Assembly (NCBI GenBank): GCA_021432635.1
Contig: MU270025.1
Span: forward strand, 393,244 to 457,243
Origin: Thozetella sp. PMI_491
Lineage: Eukaryota; Ascomycota; Sordariomycetes; Chaetosphaeriales; Chaetosphaeriaceae
Reading direction: 5' to 3'
Length of the DNA stretch: 64,000 nucleotides
Translations under genes and position numbers: made by a program
In this document: positions 33,758-51,308 of the stretch, in pieces
How the letters are laid out: every line of letters starts with the position of its first letter
Numbering within the stretch: position 1 is the first letter of the stretch
Notes under the pieces: model-generated
What the model saw: only the letters and a program-made list of their open reading frames with translations
Databases searched by the model: none
Told to the model about the DNA's origin: nothing

Positions 33758-35578
33758 CTATGACCCATTCGGATACTCCTCATCCTGATACGGGGGCAGG
33801 TCGTCATCCTCCAGCCCCAACCGCCGTCGCTCGATGTACCGCTGTTCATCGTCATTGAGGTCATCGTCAAGGAGCAGAGGGCTGATATTGTTGGCATCCC
33901 AGGCCGGTACGAGACAGGCCAGCAATACGATCCTCGTGAGTGCTACTATGGGCATCGCGGTCAGCAGGCCAATGATCCCCACCCAAAGCCAGCCGCCGCC
34001 ACCGACCCTCAGGGCGCGACCGGTCAGCTCGCCACCCGACCAGTCCTTATCGTATGGGCCCGAATAACCCTCGGCGCCCTGTCGGCGGAGTGTGAAGTAC
34101 CCCTGCGTGGCGTCGGTAAGTATATCTTCTAGCAGGCGAACCATATCAATGTCGTCCCTTTTGGCCTTGTGCAAATCGCGCAGGTATGTCTGGATGCCCG
34201 CATGCTCCAGGCCATCCATCAAGGCGCCGCCATCGCCGCCCCTGGCGCCCGCCTCGAGCCCGTCGCGGCCAAGAGCGAGATTGACGGCCGTAGCCGCCGG
34301 CTGCATATCTTCGAAGGCCAGCTGAGCGACGGGCTCTAGTTCCTTAAGAAACTCTACTGGCGCTGTGGGCTCATTCAACGCTATGAAATGTGGGACATCG
34401 CTGCCTAAGTAGAGGCATTCGATGACGACTAGTTGTGGGACGACGCGGTTGTACGGGTTCTCGGGATCAGCCCCTTGGGTTGCGCGAACGAGCCGAGCAA
34501 TAACGAATGTCTGTCGTAGTATTTTGGACTCCGAGTCTCGCAACACATCCTGCCATGTCTTCATACCAATCTCAGCATTTTCTGGGATGAAGACAGTCAA
34601 GCCGTCACGGTACCCCGGCACGGTCCCTGCGACCTCAAAACGATATTGGAAGCCCATCTTGCGGGCCGCTGCGTCGCTCGGGACCACGCTGTGTGTCCAC
34701 TTCCAGTTCGATTCATCCGTGGATTTTTTGCAGGTGGCAGTAATGTTCGTGCCGATCACTACCCCACTGAACGATGTGACTGTCCAGCCTTTGGTCAACA
34801 TGCTCCAGGGATACGTTCGAGGGGTAAAGGGGGCCTCGTGTGCTCCAATACCGCGTGTTCGAAGATCTGGGAACCAGCCTTGGCCGACCCTCAGAGGCGG
34901 GCTATCCACGCGGTAAAGCGTGCTCTGAGGGCGGCGAAGTTTATCGCCTTGGATCTTATCTAGCGTTCGCATGTAGGCACTACGGTAGACCAGTGGCATC
35001 ATGTCGCTACTCGAGACCTGTGGCAGCTCCCTGTTGACGGGTTGATACGTCCAGGCCGATATGTCTCGTGTCAGGAGCTTCGGCATGGGGCTGCTAACGC
35101 TGAAGGGGACGTTGTTCATCCCAAACGTCGCCAGCGAGGCCACGCAAGTGAGGGCCGAAAAGAGCGAGAGCTTCATCAGGGAGGAGCCGCCAAGCCGGAA
35201 TGGTGCTTTGTCGTCCACGGTGGGTCTCGGGGCGCGCGTCATCGGCCGCACGAGGAAGGGCAGCTGGGGCTCGCCACGCAGCCCCCGACGGCGCGTGACA
35301 TCGTGCAGGTATCGCTCGTGCACTGCGAACGACACGTAGACAAGCGCGCCGAAGAGAGAGCCGCCGCAGCCGAACATGAAGTTCCAGATATTGCGGTCGA
35401 AATACCTCTCGAGGTCAACCAGCGAGACACCCAGCACGACGCCACAGCCCTCGCGGTCCCACACGAGAACGACGTTGTGGTTGAGAAAGATGCCGAACCC
35501 CAGGGCCGTGGCCAAGAGGACAGCGGCAGCGAGGTTGAGGAGCACATGCGGCATCGTGGACGTCGTGAGCATGAGCAC
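33758..35578 (-). CDS. Large membrane protein of unknown function
   Basis: One exon of 606 residues. I do not recognise a named family. Visible features are three N-terminal hydrophobic segments (about residues 12-32, 65-88 and 133-155), and a long hydrophilic middle of about 370 residues with one NIT glycosylation site. Near residues 535-565 there is a strongly hydrophobic C-terminal segment (WVGIIGLLTAMPIVALTRIV). The acidic tail is rich in Asp and Pro, with DDDLPPY. This layout of TM cluster, large middle domain and C-terminal TM is shared by several fungal proteins of unknown role, including the DUF3176 group at 53314-55262, but no sequence match between the two was seen. The frame is clean with strong codon use. 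Start could also be the second Met (residue 3) or the third (residue 9). Confidence 0.7.
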   Translation of the reverse strand: MLMLTTSTMPHVLLNLAAAVLLATALGFGIFLNHNVVLVWDREGCGVVLGVSLVDLERYFDRNIWNFMFGCGGSLFGALVYVSFAVHERYLHDVTRRRGLRGEPQLPFLVRPMTRAPRPTVDDKAPFRLGGSSLMKLSLFSALTCVASLATFGMNNVPFSVSSPMPKLLTRDISAWTYQPVNRELPQVSSSDMMPLVYRSAYMRTLDKIQGDKLRRPQSTLYRVDSPPLRVGQGWFPDLRTRGIGAHEAPFTPRTYPWSMLTKGWTVTSFSGVVIGTNITATCKKSTDESNWKWTHSVVPSDAAARKMGFQYRFEVAGTVPGYRDGLTVFIPENAEIGMKTWQDVLRDSESKILRQTFVIARLVRATQGADPENPYNRVVPQLVVIECLYLGSDVPHFIALNEPTAPVEFLKELEPVAQLAFEDMQPAATAVNLALGRDGLEAGARGGDGGALMDGLEHAGIQTYLRDLHKAKRDDIDMVRLLEDILTDATQGYFTLRRQGAEGYSGPYDKDWSGGELTGRALRVGGGGWLWVGIIGLLTAMPIVALTRIVLLACLVPAWDANNISPLLLDDDLNDDEQRYIERRRLGLEDDDLPPYQDEEYPNGS

Positions 35579-36196
35579 GAAGAGGAGATTCTCTACGGCA
35601 AAGCTCTGCTGAGACGCGGGCTTTGGCTACCTAAATTTCAGACTCCTGTTCTCGTATAATCTGATGACTCATCCGATGGAGCCGACTGGCCCATATCGCT
35701 ATAACACACGTTAAGTGTGCGGCACAATGGGGTAGAACAGCACGAATAGGACCGAGAGTGCACAAAGTATGCACTAGTTTGTTCTCTAATTTCTCATCTG
35801 TTTCTTTCATCGCCGGTTTCACAGAGCCTCGCATCGAGGACATGCGAAAAGTAGCTACTTTCACGGAGCATAGTTTTTGGCCGAGTTGTTACTGTGAGCT
35901 AACACGCGACGAACATTTGCCTCACTTCGATTTGTGCATAATCAGGAACGTAGTAAGATGAAAACCCGGCTTCCGGCACTAACTTGGCGGATATTTTTGT
36001 AAGCGCAGAGCAAGGGGGAGATACTGCAAAAAGAGATGCGGCGAATCAGCAGAGCAACGGATACTGTGATATTCTACACCACTAAGAGAGAATTGACCTG
36101 CAGAGGCGCCTTTTTGCCCTATAACCTGACGATGACATATTATTCCCGCATGACAGGTGTTCCCATGCAGAGTTTAAGTTTTGACCTCAATAGGCC
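35579..36196. other. Gap upstream of the membrane-protein gene
   Basis: About 620 bp, AT-richer toward the right end. No gene or RNA recognised until the tRNA-like element terminator. Confidence 0.4.
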
Positions 36197-36206
36197 AAAA
36201 AAAAAA
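36197..36206 (-). terminator. Pol III T10 terminator of the tRNA-like gene
   Basis: Ten T on the minus strand, three bases past the discriminator base A73. It is a typical strong RNA polymerase III stop. Confidence 0.8.
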
Positions 36207-36228
36207 TATTCCCCTCGACCGGATTCGA

Positions 36229-36290
36229 CTATTGGTATTGTTAGTGAATGATTCACTAAGGCTGTTATTTCTTGGGTTAGGGTACTAACG
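36229..36290. other. Insert within the tRNA-Tyr T-loop
   Basis: 62 nt that break the T-loop and the Pol III B-box. It holds a perfect 9+1+9 palindrome (36241-36259) able to form a hairpin, and a short CCCTAACCC-like piece (minus strand) resembling 1.5 telomere repeats. No clear terminal inverted repeats or target-site duplication are seen. Confidence 0.6.
36241..36259. repeat. 19-bp palindrome inside the tRNA insert
   Basis: TTAGTGAAT-G-ATTCACTAA: nine-base arms with a single central base, perfectly self-complementary. Confidence 0.9.
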
Positions 36291-36354
36291 CCGGTGACCT
36301 GCAGGTTACAAGTTCTATTACAGCCTGTCGCGCTACCAACTGCGCCACAAGGGG

Positions 36355-39907: not shown

Positions 39908-40590
39908 ATTGAGCCAAAAGAGATGCTAACGTAGCCATCAATTCTTTTTCTTTCCACTCATGAATCTTTTTGGAGGCGCTACCGATGAGGGTCGCTTTCT
40001 TTGGAGACAAGAGGTGGGGGTGGAGGGGCTTCCTGCTGGCTGTGATTCGGGTTGACTGGGTTGACTGGTAGGAGTGACTATCAGTTTTCGACGACGATGA
40101 ACGAGTGCCTTTCACATAATCTAGTTCCTACTGCCTATTGCATTTTGCGCCATGATGAATGTATTTAGTCGAATATATCCTCTTTCCACTTCCTAATGAA
40201 CTCGGACCCTTGGATGAATCTGATTTTCTTTCGGGTCTGACTGTGTACTAACTAACTGGGTGCTAGGCAGGATAGTGTAGTTACCTGTAACTATCTACCT
40301 ACCTGAGTTAGCTTAGGCCAGCGCGGTAAATCTACGGCAAAGACGGCGGATTTCCAGTGGGTGAAACGGCTTGGGGGCCGTAGAGCCGTAGCATCCCGCC
40401 AAACATGGCTTAGTGGGCCCGGCCGTCCAGGAACACGGCCCAAACCCCAGTTTCCCATAACTATTCGGACTTCGTTCCATCCTCCATCTCACGGCCTACC
40501 CCCTCGGTCATTTCTGGCCCCCACCTCGCTTCACTCTGTAAATGAAGTAAAACCTGTCCGACGACGACACATGCAACACCGTCGATAACA
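39908..40590. other. Gap between P450 and MFS genes
   Basis: About 680 bp. No feature beyond likely UTR and promoter. Confidence 0.4.
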
Positions 40591-41994
40591 ATGGCTAACA
40601 TATCCGCCAGCGCTATAGTGCCGGAGGAGACGGCCCCGCTGCTCGGCCAGCGGGGTCCGATCAACGGTCACGCACCTCCATCCGCATCCTCGAATGGCAT
40701 TCTCAACGAGCACCTTGCAGCAGCACCGGGTGCGGACGGTCGTCTGGCGCAAACCCCCCTGCGATTGCGAATTGCTGCGGCCATGTTTTCCTTTGCTGTG
40801 CTTGGCCTGCTTGCCTCGAGCGTCGGCGTCGTGCTCCCTGCGATAATGGAGTACTACGAACTCAGCCACGTTCAGGTGTCGTTCATCTTTCCCACCGCCC
40901 CGATAGGATACTTTGTGGCCGCGTTGAACGCTGATCGGATCCACCAATGGTCTGGTCAGCGTGGCATCGCTATCATCGCTTCTCTCAGCCAACTTGTGTT
41001 CGCGGCGGTCGCAGTGATGCACCCTTCCTTTCCTCTCGTCTTGGCATTCTTTATGATAGGCGCTTTCGGCACGGCCCTCATCGACAGCTCGTGGTGTGCT
41101 TGGGCCGGCGGCCTGGAGAAGAATACGCACATGGTCCAGGGCCTTCTGCACGGCTCGTACTCGGGCGGCGCCTGCCTTGGGCCGTTCCTGGCCGGCCTGC
41201 TCCTCAGAAGGGATGGCGCGCGATGGTACCATTGGTATCTTGTCATCATTGCATTCCTACTGGTGCAGCTGGCCTTTCTACTCGGGGCCTTCTGGTTCGA
41301 GGATGCGAACCGGTTTCGCGAAAGCAAGCGCGCTCACCAGGCTAATGGTGAGGCAAGCGGCGAAGCCTCCATTAGCTGGCGCGAGATGTTCCGCTACCGG
41401 GCGACCTGGGTGTGTGCTGCCTACTTCCTAGTCTATGTCGGCACCGAGGCGGGCATCTCCGACTGGGTTGTTTACTTCATGACTGAAGCTCGTCATACAT
41501 CACCCTACTTCTCCAGCTTATGCTCCTCCGCGTTTGGGGCCGGGATGGGGATTGGCCGCCTTTTTCTGGGTGTTGTAACCGACAAAATTGGCCCTCGTCG
41601 GGCTGTCGTCTGCTATCTTATCTGCGCCATCATCTCGGAGGCGCTCTTCGCTACCGTGACCGACCCGAATGCGTCCATGGTCTGCATCTCACTCACTGGC
41701 TTCTTTGTTGGGCCTCTATATCCCTCCGGTATCGTGACTCTTGCCCGACTCATTCCTAAACACCTACACATCTCAGTCGTCGTATTCGTGGCCACGCTAG
41801 GCCAAGTCGGAGCCGCCGTATTTCCCTTCGGCATCGGAGCTCTGGTCGACATTCTCGGCGTCCAGGTTTTCCAGGCCGTAATCCTAGCCCAGCTGGTGGC
41901 CACATTGGTGATCTGGTTTATGTTTCCGCGCGTTAAAGAGTTAACCCTTGCAGAAGAGACGGTGGCAGAAAGGATAAACCCCGCTGTTGCTTAG
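40591..41994 (+). CDS. MFS transporter, fucose-permease/BSC6-like
   Basis: A single exon of 467 residues. After a cytosolic Ser- and Ala-rich N-terminus (about 50 residues) there are about 12 hydrophobic segments in two sets of six, split by a hydrophilic loop near residues 235-270. The second half contains GTEAGISDWVVYFMTE and GIGRLFLGVVTDKIGPRR, a typical MFS loop motif after the eighth segment. The overall pattern resembles fungal proteins near yeast Bsc6 and bacterial fucose permeases, with no drug-resistance signature noted. Substrate is unknown; sugar or metabolite transport at a membrane is inference. It is parallel with the P450 upstream and convergent with the alpha-glucuronidase, but co-regulation cannot be judged. 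Confidence 0.82.
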   Translation: MANISASAIVPEETAPLLGQRGPINGHAPPSASSNGILNEHLAAAPGADGRLAQTPLRLRIAAAMFSFAVLGLLASSVGVVLPAIMEYYELSHVQVSFIFPTAPIGYFVAALNADRIHQWSGQRGIAIIASLSQLVFAAVAVMHPSFPLVLAFFMIGAFGTALIDSSWCAWAGGLEKNTHMVQGLLHGSYSGGACLGPFLAGLLLRRDGARWYHWYLVIIAFLLVQLAFLLGAFWFEDANRFRESKRAHQANGEASGEASISWREMFRYRATWVCAAYFLVYVGTEAGISDWVVYFMTEARHTSPYFSSLCSSAFGAGMGIGRLFLGVVTDKIGPRRAVVCYLICAIISEALFATVTDPNASMVCISLTGFFVGPLYPSGIVTLARLIPKHLHISVVVFVATLGQVGAAVFPFGIGALVDILGVQVFQAVILAQLVATLVIWFMFPRVKELTLAEETVAERINPAVA

Positions 41995-42498: not shown

Positions 42499-45030
42499 TT
42501 AGTCGATAACTCCCAGCGGTAGTATAGAAATATAGTCGATAGGCGCCGGCTCTAGCCCATCTGGTGTTCCCACAATCTTGAGCACGTCCCCCTGGCCGAT
42601 ATGCACCTTCTCAAAGGTGATCCGAGTCGCGCTATGCCCATCGATGTATGGCGAGGGAGCATGACCCAGGACATACTCACTATCGCCTTTCCACCTCCCC
42701 ACGAGCCCATCGTTCAAGTAGGCTTCCCATGTCGAGTTGCCGATAGCCATGTCATAGTAATTGACTGCCAGATTGTACGTGCCCGAAGTTACATTAAGCT
42801 TTGTCGAGAGAGAACCCTTCGTGGAGTTGGTCGATATTACGACGCAAAGAGAATTAGAGGCGGCTTCAAACGGAGAAACCCTGTATACCTTGTACCCATC
42901 AAGATCCATGCTCTCGGCTTCGATGCGGTATGGATGAGTTCCCACCCTTCCATGTGCATCAGGAATACCGGATTTGTTGAAATAGAAGTTGTTAATGCTG
43001 TCCCTCCAAACCAAAGAGTGCCCGGCTTGGTACACAAGGCGGTGGAGCACATGTTCGTATCGCTCATCGTCGATCTTTCCCTTAAGCGACTGCCATGCCG
43101 CAGGATAGGTCTGAGCAACAGCCGAACCGTCATAGTGGGCGTCATAGAAATGTTGGATCACTGTCTTGCCCGAATGTAGGACCTGGGTATAGGGAACATG
43201 ATGAAACCACAGCATTAGGTTATCAGGCGTGGTCTCGACTTTCTCGTACGCAGCAGCGACCTCGGCTGGATACTGGCCCGAGAAGCCTGTACCGTTCCAC
43301 ACCGTCCGATCCATACCAATGGTTTCGTGATCTGCGCGCGTCCACTGGCCCCAGGGGTTGCCGTCCTGCGATGCTGGATTTGGGCCATAGTGAGAGAACA
43401 GGATATCCGTCAATGTCTGGATGCCGAGATTGCCAGTATAATTCTCGTAAGCCGGCCATGACTCCATAGAAATTTTTGTAACGGTGTCAATCACTTGCTC
43501 GTCGTGGCCAAATGTCAACCGAGTCCAGGAGCGGAGCAGCTCTTCGGCATCAGATGATGGGTCCCACGCTAAGCGCCCGTATGCGTACAGGTTAGACATG
43601 GCAAGATGGCTCCCTAGCCAAGTTGTGTTGGTACCGACATTTACGACTCCTGCATACCCGCCAGGCTTCCGGTTAAACCTCTTTCCGTTCAGGATATCGG
43701 TCAGATACGAGTCTTTGCTGTCTACCCGCAAGTTGAATCCGAGTAGCTCTTTCCACATAGGAGCAAGATACACTAGGTGGCACTGTTGGCCGAGGTACTC
43801 CTGTGTGACTTGGAGCTCGATCGAGGTGGTAGTCTGGATCAGGTGTGTGAAGAGGGGAGAGACTGGCTCGCGAACTTGGAAGTCGATGGGGCCGTATTTG
43901 ATCTGGACGATTACATTGTCCAGGAACTCGGTGTCAAGGCCATTAAAGAACTGGACAGCGGCATTGGCTCGGTCCGCCTTCCAGTCCAGAGTTTGGTTCA
44001 GGCTCGTCGAGTCGTAGACGAAGGCTCGAAACATGACAGTTCCTCCGTGTGGTGCAAGAGCTCGCGCAAATAGGTTCGCGCCCTGCGCCAAGGTTCGATT
44101 GTATGTCAACGGGCCAGGCTGGCCTTCTGAGTTGGCCTTGACGAGATATCCAGCGAAGTCGGGAACTACTCGATATAACACATCGGTTTTGTTGTGCCAC
44201 CAAGCGATAACCTTCTCATCCAGCGGGTCAAAGGTGTCAAGATCGCCAAGTGCCTTGGGTGATGCGAAGTAGAGTGACATGCCTAGCTGCACACCATAGG
44301 GTCTGAAGGCATCAGCGATTCTGCCGAGTCCTGCGATATTCTGGTTGCTCCACATGGTTTCGTTGGCGTTGACATTGTTGACCACTACCGCGTTGATACC
44401 GATGGATGCTAGTATACGAGCGTATTGGGCCACACGCGTAAGATCGCCACGAACTGTCCCATTCCAGAAGAAGATGGATTGACCGCCGTAGCCACGCTCG
44501 ACACTCCCGTGGGTGCCACCGTCCCGAAGGTTGTCCCACTGGTTCACCCATCGTACCGGAACATCGGGGTTTGAGGCATAGGATGTGCTGGATAAGTTTC
44601 CCTGGGCGAGGCGTGAGAGATAGTCGAAGGCACCGTACAATGCGCCCCTCTCGTTCTGCCCCAGGATCAAGACGCGATTGGGGCTACTCCGTAGATAGAA
44701 GCCATCTCGAACGAGATCGGGGATTCCGTCAATATTCCCACCCTGGCTCGAGTACGCATCGACAGTGCCCACTACAATGCCTCCCGCGCACGAGCTAGTG
44801 CGGTTGGTAACCGTAAGAGCCTTTCCTAGGATGCCGCTGATTCCACTCAGCAACTCCTGGCCCGCGGTGTAAACAGGACTCGAGACAGATGAATTGAGCA
44901 CCGTTATGGTCGACGGGATTGAGGCGTGATGATCTGCCGCATTGGGTATTCTCGCATAGCGCAGCCAAGCGTTGATGCCATTTTCCGCGGCTACGACGCC
45001 AAGCTGCAATAGAAAGGCGAGTTTGACCAT
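42499..45030 (-). CDS. aguA: Secreted GH67 alpha-glucuronidase
   Basis: One exon of 843 residues. A short signal peptide (MVKLAFLLQLGVVAAENG) is followed directly by the mature start AWLRYARI. The sequence matches fungal GH67 alpha-glucuronidases along its length. It includes RWVNQWDNLRDGG, the GINAVVVNNVNA block, YGPIDFQVREPVSPLF, LQVTQEYLGQQ and HHVPYTQVLHSGKTVIQHFYD. By alignment from memory, E302 (in SEGQPGP) would be the acid, and D383 with E411, spaced 28 apart as in bacterial relatives, the base pair. The enzyme removes 4-O-methyl-glucuronic acid from xylan fragments outside the cell. There are numerous N-glycosylation sites. It is the clearest plant-cell-wall enzyme here. A GST-like gene lies divergently. 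Confidence 0.94.
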   Translation of the reverse strand: MVKLAFLLQLGVVAAENGINAWLRYARIPNAADHHASIPSTITVLNSSVSSPVYTAGQELLSGISGILGKALTVTNRTSSCAGGIVVGTVDAYSSQGGNIDGIPDLVRDGFYLRSSPNRVLILGQNERGALYGAFDYLSRLAQGNLSSTSYASNPDVPVRWVNQWDNLRDGGTHGSVERGYGGQSIFFWNGTVRGDLTRVAQYARILASIGINAVVVNNVNANETMWSNQNIAGLGRIADAFRPYGVQLGMSLYFASPKALGDLDTFDPLDEKVIAWWHNKTDVLYRVVPDFAGYLVKANSEGQPGPLTYNRTLAQGANLFARALAPHGGTVMFRAFVYDSTSLNQTLDWKADRANAAVQFFNGLDTEFLDNVIVQIKYGPIDFQVREPVSPLFTHLIQTTTSIELQVTQEYLGQQCHLVYLAPMWKELLGFNLRVDSKDSYLTDILNGKRFNRKPGGYAGVVNVGTNTTWLGSHLAMSNLYAYGRLAWDPSSDAEELLRSWTRLTFGHDEQVIDTVTKISMESWPAYENYTGNLGIQTLTDILFSHYGPNPASQDGNPWGQWTRADHETIGMDRTVWNGTGFSGQYPAEVAAAYEKVETTPDNLMLWFHHVPYTQVLHSGKTVIQHFYDAHYDGSAVAQTYPAAWQSLKGKIDDERYEHVLHRLVYQAGHSLVWRDSINNFYFNKSGIPDAHGRVGTHPYRIEAESMDLDGYKVYRVSPFEAASNSLCVVISTNSTKGSLSTKLNVTSGTYNLAVNYYDMAIGNSTWEAYLNDGLVGRWKGDSEYVLGHAPSPYIDGHSATRITFEKVHIGQGDVLKIVGTPDGLEPAPIDYISILPLGVID

Positions 45031-45130
45031 GGTTGCGATGCCCTGGAGACAGAGAAGGAACTGCTCCGCGGTCTAGACATGGCACGATACACGTCGTATT
45101 TACTTCAATGTTTTTCTTTCTTGTTCTACT

Positions 45131-46813: not shown

Positions 46814-48271
46814 CTAAACCGGGGACAAGATACATCTTGCGCCATCGTTCGATAAGCTCTTCGGGCCCGTGATGATGTACTCAGGTGCCTTCGGAGGTGT
46901 GGCGAGCGGGTAGAATCGCCAGATCTTGCCGCTCCCGTTGTCCGAAGCATAGAGCGATCCATCATTGCGTCCATACATAGCCCCAATGGCATCGGTGGGC
47001 TGAATGCCTGGGTAGCTTGCCACAGTGGTCCACGTCTTGGAGGCCTTGCTAAACTTGATGAGCGTGACGCCACTCGTCGGCGTCGTAAGGTTTCTCGCAA
47101 CGGCGTAGAGGTATCCGGGGTCTTGCTTCAAGTAGACCCAGTCGGCAACCTGCAATTTGTTTGGGAGCGTGACTGTGCCATTGCCGATGAGCTTGCCGTA
47201 GGTTGGGGAGCCAGGCTTCAGGTCTATAGCCGCCCAGTTTTGGCCGCCCGCGCTGTACCAGTAGGTTCCGTTCTCGTCGATGTCGCCCATGTAGCTGTTC
47301 TTGATAGCATTGATCGGTGCAATCACCTGCGATGAGCCGTCTGCCGAGATTCGAATCAAGCTGTCCCTCTGGCGGGCATACAGGTAGTCATCAAGAGGGT
47401 TAAAACCCATGGCATTGATGCTACCGCCGTTACCAACGCTCCTCTTGACCAGGGTATTCCTGCCCGTCTCTACATCGACGGAGTAGAGCATGGCGTCCTG
47501 AACCAGCCATCCCTTGTCGTTGCAGGTAAGTTTGGGACCAGTTGGTTCCGGAGGAGGATATGACACCGACGAAGTGCTAGTCGTAGAAGAGCTGGAAGAG
47601 CTAGTGGTGGGAGCACTACTAGTGGTAGGAGCGCTTGTGGTAGGGGAGACACTGGTAGTGGTAGGAACACTCGTGGTTGTCGGCACACTGGTGGTTTTCG
47701 GCACACTGGTGGTTTTCGGCACACTGGTGGTTGTCGGCACACTGGTAGTTGTAGGTGCCGCGCTAGATGGCGCCTCGGAAGAGGGCGCCTCGCTAGATGC
47801 CGGCGACTCGGATGGGCCGCACACGGGCGTCGTAGTCACAGTCACTGTGCTGTTTTGCGGCACGCAGGCGTTGCAGCCGCCCCAGCCGGGCCAGAGGTAG
47901 ACCACGGTTTGCTGAACCCAGGACGTTGGGGTTGGGCATGGGTACATGGTCACAATCTGGCCGATTCCCGTGATAGGCACCAGAGCTGGTACTTGGGGAA
48001 TATACGTCACCTGTCCAATGCATCCGAGCGGCATGCCACAGCCCTGGAAGCCGAGAGTATGAGTGCCTGGTTGATTGATAGTGACCGTCTGCACGTTGAA
48101 AGTATGAATAGTCTCGGTTTTTGTCGGTGGCGTTGTTACCGTAACGGTCTTGAGCCCCTGGGGGTTACCCGCTTTGTCGCCGGCAGCTTTGGCGGCGTCA
48201 CCAGCCGGGACAGCCAGAGCGACGCCGGCGAGGGCCACCATACTGCCGAAGACGATTTGGGAAAGAACCAT
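46814..48271 (-). CDS. Secreted propeller-like protein (DUF6923-like) with Ser/Thr stalk
   Basis: One exon of 485 residues. A signal peptide (MVLSQIVFGSMVALAGVALAV) leads into a cysteine-containing N-domain (GTHTLGFQGCGMPLGCIGQV, PCPTPTSWVQQ, YLWPGWGG). A low-complexity Ser/Thr/Pro stalk at about residues 155-245 includes SVPTTT/SVPKTT repeats and is probably O-glycosylated. The C-terminal 240 residues repeat LYSVDVETG, NAMGFNPLDDYLYA, GDIDENGTYWY and GSLYASDNGSGKIWRF motifs, fitting a propeller-like fold of the DUF6923 kind, and end NDGARCILSPV. It has a divergent paralogue at 50088-51308. It is likely a cell-wall or secreted protein; function is unknown. Antisense valine-rich frames over the stalk are shadows. 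Confidence 0.8.
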   Translation of the reverse strand: MVLSQIVFGSMVALAGVALAVPAGDAAKAAGDKAGNPQGLKTVTVTTPPTKTETIHTFNVQTVTINQPGTHTLGFQGCGMPLGCIGQVTYIPQVPALVPITGIGQIVTMYPCPTPTSWVQQTVVYLWPGWGGCNACVPQNSTVTVTTTPVCGPSESPASSEAPSSEAPSSAAPTTTSVPTTTSVPKTTSVPKTTSVPTTTSVPTTTSVSPTTSAPTTSSAPTTSSSSSSTTSTSSVSYPPPEPTGPKLTCNDKGWLVQDAMLYSVDVETGRNTLVKRSVGNGGSINAMGFNPLDDYLYARQRDSLIRISADGSSQVIAPINAIKNSYMGDIDENGTYWYSAGGQNWAAIDLKPGSPTYGKLIGNGTVTLPNKLQVADWVYLKQDPGYLYAVARNLTTPTSGVTLIKFSKASKTWTTVASYPGIQPTDAIGAMYGRNDGSLYASDNGSGKIWRFYPLATPPKAPEYIITGPKSLSNDGARCILSPV

Positions 48272-50087
48272 TCTGAATACGGGACAGAAGCGAGGAAGTC
48301 GAGGAAAAGCTGGCCGGTGCCAGTGAATGAAAGGTTGTTGCTCGTATACCTGATTCTTGGGGGAGAGCGGCTGCTACTCATATAGACACTCGAAATTTCA
48401 ATTTGCCCATGATTACCTTGGTTGGCGCATATCGTTTTTCCTAATGTCGGCTGAGAAGCTTGCTTAGACAAGTCCTTACCCAGGAAGAGGCGGGATGAGG
48501 CGGGATGAGGCGGAATGCGAGCTGCGCAATGCCGGGGAAAAGCACCCTCCTGTAGATCGCCAACGGTATGCGGATCTTTGACTGAGACAGATCGTCCTTT
48601 GAAGAACCGTTTAGCTGATGCGGTGGGTTTGTAAGCCAGTTGCCCTGGCGATCGGGCGAACCCCTTAGACAGACCTTCTTGCAGGCAAGTCCTCTCTTAC
48701 CCGATTGGTCTACAAGGATTACCACAAAAATATTGCTTCACACAAATAGGAAGGCGCTACTCTCCAGGACCAACTATGTGTGTTTAAGCTGAGGCTCCCG
48801 TCCCGAAAAATCAGTGTGGCAGATGGGATAGCAGCTCCCCGCCCTTTTGACAGTAAACAACATTTTGAAGAGCTTTAAACAGGCCAAAATGGTTAAAAGA
48901 GACCAAGCCTCGCCTATCAGACGATAGGGGTTGCTGGCATGCTCCTTGTTCTAGCTGAGTCCCAGCTGAGACCCGTTACATATTTACCATCGCTTGGCAT
49001 CCACGATGCTACTGAGCGAGATTGTAAGGTTGGACAAAGCATAGGATTCATAGACAAGTCAACACGGCTCCACTAAACCCTGGGGGGAGGCTTCCCTTGT
49101 TGAAGAGAGTATGTTTGTGGAGGGTTTCTCCCGCTGAAATGCGCCCCGACTCCCGAGATGCTGTTGCGTAACTGATGGCTACTGAAGGGTAGTACAATAA
49201 AACAAGGTTCTGATGAATGAGCACTCAAGGTACACAAGCTAGATAGATGCCTAGGGCGCATTTCTGTCTAGTCCCCAGACCAGTACTTCGATGCCTCCCA
49301 ATGAATATGCGCACTATAGAGAGGATTAGAGGCAACGAGGCTACCTGTAGGCCAACAAAATGGGGCAATGTTATTCGCTGGCCCAACTTCTGGAAGAGGG
49401 TTGAGCCTGTCTTAAACAAAGCATACCTACTTAACTGCTCTCGCTATGATTTGATTCCAAATGCCAAGATGCCCCGAGACCCTGAGTCCCATTCCAAGGA
49501 ACCGGATTCCCGGTTCCGTCCTCGGCAGACCCATCCCGCGTACCCGTTTTTCCGGCCGTGTCTCAATCGCCCCTGAGCTCGAGGCTCAAGACACATTGCG
49601 GGCTTCAACGGCTCCAATGATATTCGAACGTGCGGCAACGGCGCTTCACCTTCGGCCCATTTATTGTCTTTAATAAACGGCTCAGGATCAACGGTGGTAC
49701 AAGATTTTTTCTTGTCAGTGGCCGGTTTAGACGCGACATCCGCATCCCCACCCTGATGCGCCATCTTGTGGCCACAATGCGGTACCTGGATGCAATCCAA
49801 CTCTATTCGGAGGCATGCGGCGCGATGGCGGCCTGAATCCGAAAGCTGAATCGTACCCGGCTGTGCAGCATCCCCGGATCACAAGATTTCATTCCTCTGA
49901 GCTCAATTTTCGTGTCTTGCTTTCTTAATACTACAAAATCCTTACCAGGCTTCAAAGAAGAGAGTCGTATAAGATGGCGCTTCTTCGCGCGAAGGCTCAA
50001 CCTGTCGCCTTTTCACCGCATCACGATTTATCGGCTGACCTAGAACTACTCTTCCCTCCTATATCTATCTAAGAAGAGACCCTCGCC
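48272..50087. other. Divergent region between the two propeller-like paralogues
   Basis: About 1.8 kb. Contains a short tandem CGGGATGAGG repeat at 48491-48510. No gene recognised; small frames (such as 49247-49576) are not convincing. Confidence 0.45.
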
Positions 50088-51308
50088 ATGCATAGTTCCC
50101 ATACCATCTTGGGCTCTGTGTCAGCCCTGCTGTCCCTGGCAAATGCCAAGCCCAATGCCGTCAAGCCTAGAGGTGTGCAGACTGTCCATCTTCAGGAGGC
50201 TCCTATGGTCACGGAGACAAGGGCGTACACCAAGGACGTCCAAACTAGCCTCACCGCTGCGGGCACCTACACACTGGGTGTCGACGGCTGCGGTGGTCTC
50301 CAGTGTATCGGCCAAGTGGTGAACATTGGTCAGCCTGGCGTTGTCTGGCTGACTGCTGTTGGTGTCACGACAACCATCTACCCGTGCTTCACGCCGACTT
50401 CGTACAGTCAGGGAACAACGGTTTTCGTGTGGCCAGGATTCGGTGGCAATCCCAACCCGGTAACCGTTACCGCAACGGCCGAGTGCATTCCCACGGATGA
50501 GGTGGCGTCCTCTGCTCCACCAGCTACATCTACCCAGGCTACAACTCCAGAGCCTTCACCTACGGCTGGGCCGAAGCTTTCGTGCGACAAGAGCGGCTGG
50601 CTTATCCAGCAGAGCACATTCTACAGAGTGAACCTGACTACCGCACAGATTTTCCCAGTGCTGAGCAGTGTCGGCGATGGCAGCTTGACCAACGCTATGG
50701 GATTCAATCCCACGGATGACTACCTGTACGCCATACAGAGCAACAAGATCATCCGTATCAATGCTGCTGGGCTCACCACACCAGTTGGGCCACTTAGCAC
50801 GAGCTGGGGCTCCAATTTCCTGCCTAACCAGGGCGATATCGACACAAATGGCGTTTATTGGTACGGCTCGAACGGTGTTTATTGGGCCTCCGTGGACCTG
50901 AAGCCAGGCTCGCCCAACTACGGAAAACTGATCGACAGCGGCAAAACGACCAGGCCGGCCGGCATCCAAAACATCATTGACTGGGTTTATTTCCCGGACC
51001 TTGGGAACAACGTTGGAAACGCTCTCTACGCCATAGCTGTGAGGACGATGGGAGGTGTAGCGTTGCTGAGGTTCGACTTGACCTCCAAGCAGTGGACGAT
51101 TCTTCAAACGTATCCGAATGTCCGGCGCACCACTGTGGGCTTCGGCGCCATGTACGGTACGAAAGATGGAACCTTGTATGCTTCTGACAACGGCAATGGC
51201 AACATCTTTGCTTTCAACGTCAAGACTCTGGCCAGCCCTACTGGCCCAACTACCGGGCCAGTGTCCCGGCAAAACGACGGCGCTCGCTGTATCTTGGCCG
51301 ATTCCTAA
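50088..51308 (+). CDS. Secreted propeller-like protein (DUF6923-like), paralogue
   Basis: One exon of 406 residues, in mirror orientation to the gene at 46814-48271. It shares the same plan: a short signal-like N-terminus (MHSSHTILGSVSALLSLANA), then a Cys domain with GTYTLGVDGCGGLQCIGQVV, PCFTPTSYSQG and FVWPGFGG. After that come GPKLSCDKSGWLIQ, NAMGFNPTDDYLYA, GDIDTNGVYWYG, LKPGSPNYGKLI, GTLYASDNGNGNIFAF and the ending NDGARCILADS. The Ser/Thr stalk is only about 20 residues here, against about 90 in the paralogue. The pair clearly arose by duplication with inversion. Function unknown; probably extracellular. Confidence 0.83.
   Translation: MHSSHTILGSVSALLSLANAKPNAVKPRGVQTVHLQEAPMVTETRAYTKDVQTSLTAAGTYTLGVDGCGGLQCIGQVVNIGQPGVVWLTAVGVTTTIYPCFTPTSYSQGTTVFVWPGFGGNPNPVTVTATAECIPTDEVASSAPPATSTQATTPEPSPTAGPKLSCDKSGWLIQQSTFYRVNLTTAQIFPVLSSVGDGSLTNAMGFNPTDDYLYAIQSNKIIRINAAGLTTPVGPLSTSWGSNFLPNQGDIDTNGVYWYGSNGVYWASVDLKPGSPNYGKLIDSGKTTRPAGIQNIIDWVYFPDLGNNVGNALYAIAVRTMGGVALLRFDLTSKQWTILQTYPNVRRTTVGFGAMYGTKDGTLYASDNGNGNIFAFNVKTLASPTGPTTGPVSRQNDGARCILADS

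Follow-up and report, generated by a model that had tools for sequence, protein, structure and literature searches.

How does a tRNA-Tyr gene come to be interrupted twice, once at the standard 37/38 site and once inside the T-loop, and could its transcript still mature into a working tRNA? This question is raised by a locus on the minus strand of the window, by which we mean the whole 64-kb stretch of DNA analysed here. A first-pass annotation had offered two explanations of the T-loop interruption, a second tRNA intron or an insertion that killed the gene. The anatomy behind that choice stands, but the choice leaves out the reading that fits best, a GT-AG intron of spliceosomal type.

A tRNA-Tyr gene with two interruptions

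The locus is a Pol III gene of normal make-up, as seen from its match to the Rfam tRNA model RF00005, its cloverleaf positions, its A-box and its T10 run (Table 1). Only one Rfam match in the 64-kb window reaches the gathering threshold, and this is the tRNA gene itself, which aligns to RF00005 end to end (minus strand, 36354 to 36210) and scores 31.7 bits where the gathering score is 29. The covariance-model match sought by the first-pass annotation is obtained over the full length with the insert in place. ARAGORN reported no gene, whether run on the window or, with anticodon-loop introns allowed, on 400 nt around the tRNA gene. If the case is real, the lack of a match from ARAGORN and an Rfam score barely above threshold would suggest how such genes get missed. 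In the available part of its description, tRNAscan-SE 2.0 treats noncanonical introns for archaea (PMC8450103).

Walking through the standard tRNA positions, we find the anticodon GTA, the C1-G72 pair, A73 and the parts of the cloverleaf; with the 37/38 intron, the A-box, the T10 run and the Rfam score, these bear out the earlier claim of a real tRNA-Tyr gene. Twenty of the 21 stem pairs are standard, if the T6-G67 wobble is counted as such, so that the earlier statement that all stems pair holds except at A27·C43. Of the invariant and semi-invariant positions, 19 of the 20 checked carry the expected base, the exception being C54 under the GT-AG cut. A T at position 54 is near-universal among tRNAs, and the departure from it lowers our estimate that the gene yields a working tRNA.

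The B-box is broken by the T-loop interruption, as had been claimed: its best remnant keeps 7 of the 10 consensus letters, and across the window, both strands counted, 0.37% of positions do as well. Base 73 is separated by three bases from the T10 run, one of five runs of at least eight T in the window, both strands included. When the whole 145 nt are folded, the minimum-energy structure contains the acceptor and D stems but lacks the anticodon and T stems.

Table 1. Features of the tRNA-Tyr locus, in window coordinates
Feature	Position	Strand	Basis
tRNA-Tyr(GTA) gene, two interruptions	36210..36354	-	Rfam RF00005 full length and position walk
A-box TGGCGCAGTTGG, bases 8-19	36336..36347	-	full match to consensus
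11-nt intron at the standard site, 37/38	36307..36317	-	position walk
T-stem 5' half, bases 49-53, ACCGG	36291..36295	-	Rfam match and position walk
Base 54, C (normally T) once the 61-nt GT-AG segment is removed	36290..36290	-	position walk
Spliceosomal-type intron (by signals), 61 nt, between bases 54 and 55	36229..36289	-	signals and boundary fit
Donor GTTAGT	36284..36289	-	sequence
Palindrome TTAGTGAATCATTCACTAA centred on a single base; 8-bp hairpin (predicted) holding most of the branch site	36241..36259	-	fold
Branch site ACTAAC, branch A at 36241, 12 nt from acceptor G	36240..36245	-	sequence
Acceptor TAG (61-nt segment ends ATAG)	36229..36231	-	sequence
B-box remnant TAGTCGAATCC, 7/10 consensus letters	36221..36231	-	comparison with consensus
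T-loop remainder and T-stem 3' half, bases 55-65	36218..36228	-	Rfam match and position walk
T10 run, Pol III terminator	36197..36206	-	sequence scan

Beside the gene, a match to the snoRNA sR44 at 36416-36365 scores 15.3 bits against a gathering score of 45 and was taken as chance. A 10-nt direct repeat, TGACCTGCAG, occurs at 36094-36103 and at 36295-36304, with starts 201 nt apart and one copy in the part of the gene that runs from the anticodon stem to the T-stem. Further away, Pfam matches were obtained for 7 of the 10 window proteins scanned, and they would suit a filamentous ascomycete. By Pfam, a single open frame (42499-45072, minus strand) is a gene of GH67 alpha-glucuronidase type, and it adjoins an MFS transporter (40546-41994, plus strand). 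Two neighbouring open frames, at 46814-48373 on the minus strand and 50073-51308 on the plus strand, encode proteins that look similar by eye and are perhaps an inverted duplicate.

Boundaries and splice signals of the T-loop insert

Between G53 and C61 lie 68 bases, versus the normal 7. The first-pass annotation had reported a segment of about 62 nt splitting the T-loop; the loop is split, but with 36290 kept as base 54 the segment is 61 nt long, from 36289 to 36229. Its removal would leave a 7-nt T-loop, C-TCGAAT, in which C occupies position 54. The earlier remark that the loop is one base short after removal does not hold generally, as it depends on the cut: the GT-AG cut leaves seven bases, not six.

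The fungal branch site has been described as RCTRAY, 6–36 nt from the acceptor, with a mean distance of 15 nt in U3 introns (PMC5832005, available part). The 61-nt segment has GT...YAG ends with a donor of the form GTNNGT (GTTAGT...TAG), and an RCTRAY branch site, ACTAAC, lies 12 nt before its acceptor. These signals, their spacing, boundaries that fit the tRNA, and 61-nt registers in which no tRNA-type splice motif is seen together suggest that the insert is probably an intron of spliceosomal type (U2-type by its signals). It is possibly introner-like.

We estimated how often such an arrangement occurs by chance by counting 62-nt stretches which, if they stood in place of the insert, could be cut within the T-loop to give 61 nt with GTNNGT, RCTRAY at 6–36 nt and YAG. 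Four of the 127,876 window 62-mers fit when both strands are taken: two are registers of the insert, and two are registers of a single further place, at 34007 and 34006 on the minus strand. This count, like the shuffle figures, flatters the spliceosomal reading because the idea was formed after the insert had been read, though the criteria follow published consensus. Among shuffles of the insert, 4 of 100,000 dinucleotide and 0 of 100,000 mononucleotide shuffles fit. When any GT donor is accepted, without GT at +5/+6, the numbers rise to 24 of 127,876 window 62-mers and 13 of 100,000 mononucleotide shuffles.

The strength of the spliceosomal reading lies in these boundaries, not in the motifs alone, which are common. 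A loose donor-branch-acceptor scan, which we set aside as uninformative, showed no enrichment: the window gave 71 candidates (47 and 24 by strand) versus 48–67 per strand in six random sequences. A search for the pattern GTTAGT..CTAAC..TAG, itself drawn from the insert, returned the insert only, with a mean of 0.06 expected and at least one occurrence in 5 of 100 shuffles.

For comparison with introns of neighbouring protein genes, eight window introns were placed by hand, guided by reading frames and protein families; they are inferred, not annotated. They measure 45–70 nt, a range that includes the 61 nt of the insert, and their most consensus-like branch candidates lie 10–18 nt before the last G, an agreement that is partly built in because the introns were placed with such signals in mind. 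By strict letters, GTNNGT is present in five of the eight and RCTRAY in five of the eight, and the nudix intron, which ends AAG, is the least certain of the set. Donor position +3 is T in the insert versus A or G in all eight. A coding-statistics gene finder, tried for training an intron model, was rejected: one run yielded 11 candidates, every one an in-frame read-through, and another yielded 13, few of them credible.

Symmetry of the insert and the competing explanations

With T at donor +3, the donor GTTAGT and the branch site ACTAAC are reverse complements of each other, letter for letter. Because of this complementarity, the plus strand from 36240 to 36304 also reads GTTAGT..ACTAAC..CAG over 65 nt, with its far end in the tRNA body and not at a tRNA boundary. 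Folding of the insert predicts two hairpins, one of 5 bp on the donor and one of 8 bp on the branch region, with a z score of -3.31, and none of 200 shuffles folds as well. The predicted hairpins may mask both the donor and the branch site. A telomere-like 10-mer, ACCCTAACCC, has three sites in the window on two strands (15096, 24992 and 36283), one of them in the insert, where about 0.12 would be expected by arithmetic. A search of a viral contig collection with the insert core found nothing. Searches of viral and bacterial/archaeal contig collections with a tRNA-Tyr pattern also found nothing. These negatives carry little weight, as the collections by their descriptions hold viruses, bacteria and archaea.

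The main rival to a spliceosomal-type intron is a pseudogene, in which one of several tRNA-Tyr copies was recently broken by a short unrelated insertion (a mobile fragment with a palindrome, or filler from repair) and the splice-like signals are coincidental. The split B-box, C54 and A27·C43 agree with such a history, as do three properties of the insert itself: its 19-nt palindrome, a fold better than that of every shuffle and the presence of the telomere-like 10-mer. tRNA genes are usually multi-copy, so the loss of one tRNA-Tyr copy would be tolerable. Against this, a donor, branch site, acceptor, spacing and loop length that all agree rarely coincide by chance, and by eye we see no target-site duplication at the ends of the insert. 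We consider the pseudogene explanation unlikely on balance.

A second intron of tRNA type, a substrate of the tRNA splicing endonuclease like those of red algae, is highly improbable. A tRNA-Ile intron of Cyanidioschyzon merolae lies at 53/54, one base from the site of the insert (PMC9602550, available part), and position alone is therefore compatible with a tRNA-type intron. All four central pairs of a bulge-helix-bulge can be formed in one 62-nt register, one 64-nt cut and one 58-nt cut, but these would leave loops of 6, 4 and 10 bases, respectively. The GT-AG register forms two of the four central pairs and the other 61-nt registers within the loop at most three, in a test that has little power because its 37/38 control did not single out the known cuts: in a wider scan the parsed 37/38 cuts fall outside the six best, and the scan of 61- and 62-nt registers has no such control.

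If the insert is a spliceosomal-type intron, its most likely source would be a pre-mRNA intron of which a mobile copy entered the gene, whether through reverse splicing, as an introner-like element or in some similar way. Pol III would transcribe the split gene from the A-box and the upstream region, stopping at the T10 run. From the T-loop of this transcript the spliceosome would then excise 61 nt, while the 11-nt intron at 37/38 would fall to the tRNA splicing endonuclease. An intact A-box, an intact terminator and stems that keep 20 of their 21 pairs speak for function; the split B-box, C54, A27·C43, the placement of the donor and branch site in predicted hairpins and the anticodon and T stems missing from the predicted fold of the 145 nt speak against it. 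A working tRNA matured by two splicing machines, the spliceosome for the 61 nt and the tRNA endonuclease at 37/38, is on this balance possible but doubtful. If it were true, the new intron would also separate the two halves of the internal promoter. If the 61-nt intron is not removed, this tRNA-Tyr copy is a recent casualty of a spliceosomal-type intron.

Comparison with known systems

Among the open-licence papers listed, including those on introns of rDNA and U6 and on introners, none describes a nuclear tRNA gene with a spliceosomal intron; a case may exist in older papers or in those behind subscription. The portions examined of PMC4457414, PMC6726248 and PMC11782384 describe no spliceosomal intron in a tRNA gene. 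If the present case is true, even a very small gene with its promoter inside it is open to mobile introns, and the action of the spliceosome on a tRNA precursor would become testable.

Extra introns at ectopic positions of tRNA genes are described for Cyanidioschyzon merolae and archaea, and one of those in C. merolae lies in the T-arm (53/54), as does the insert (PMC9602550, available part). Unlike these ectopic introns, the insert ends GT-AG, and by the weak test given above no bulge-helix-bulge fits its 61-nt registers.

The introner-like elements and symmetrical introns of Pezizomycotina share internal symmetry with the insert, in which it takes the form of complementarity between donor and branch site (PMC8469720, available part). 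In contrast to the insert, they carry long inverted repeats (45–55 nt in Hypoxylaceae), are described in protein genes and are multi-copy, whereas no second copy of the insert was found within the 64-kb window. In the available part of a large survey, the introner families of ascomycetes are an outlier without TIRs or TSDs (PMC9860276).

The 57-bp rDNA intron of the lichen Cladonia grayi is also short, ectopic and in a structural RNA gene, and it is removed there by the splicing machinery (available part of PMC8527467). Its host is transcribed by Pol I, unlike the tRNA-Tyr gene. Aligned over 21 letters with a single gap, the 3' ends of the Cladonia intron and of the insert agree at 17 positions; we claim no kinship between the two, as 466 of 20,000 random tails with the branch site and TAG held fixed reach the same likeness.

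Small non-coding RNA genes that harbour introns of spliceosomal type, as the insert probably is, are the U3 snoRNA and U6 snRNA genes of fungi, and U6 is likewise a Pol III transcript (PMC5832005 and PMC10484740, available parts). According to the same portions of these sources, 138 of 310 fungal U3 genes are interrupted, and the branch pattern RCTRAC is present in 129 of the 138 introns. Unlike in the U3 and U6 cases, the host of the insert is a tRNA and the insert splits the B-box. A sequence resembling a B-box reportedly lies within the U6 intron of Schizosaccharomyces. Spliceosomal introns are known from the rRNA, U6 and U3 genes of fungi, and a tRNA host for one appears to be new among the open-licence papers listed.
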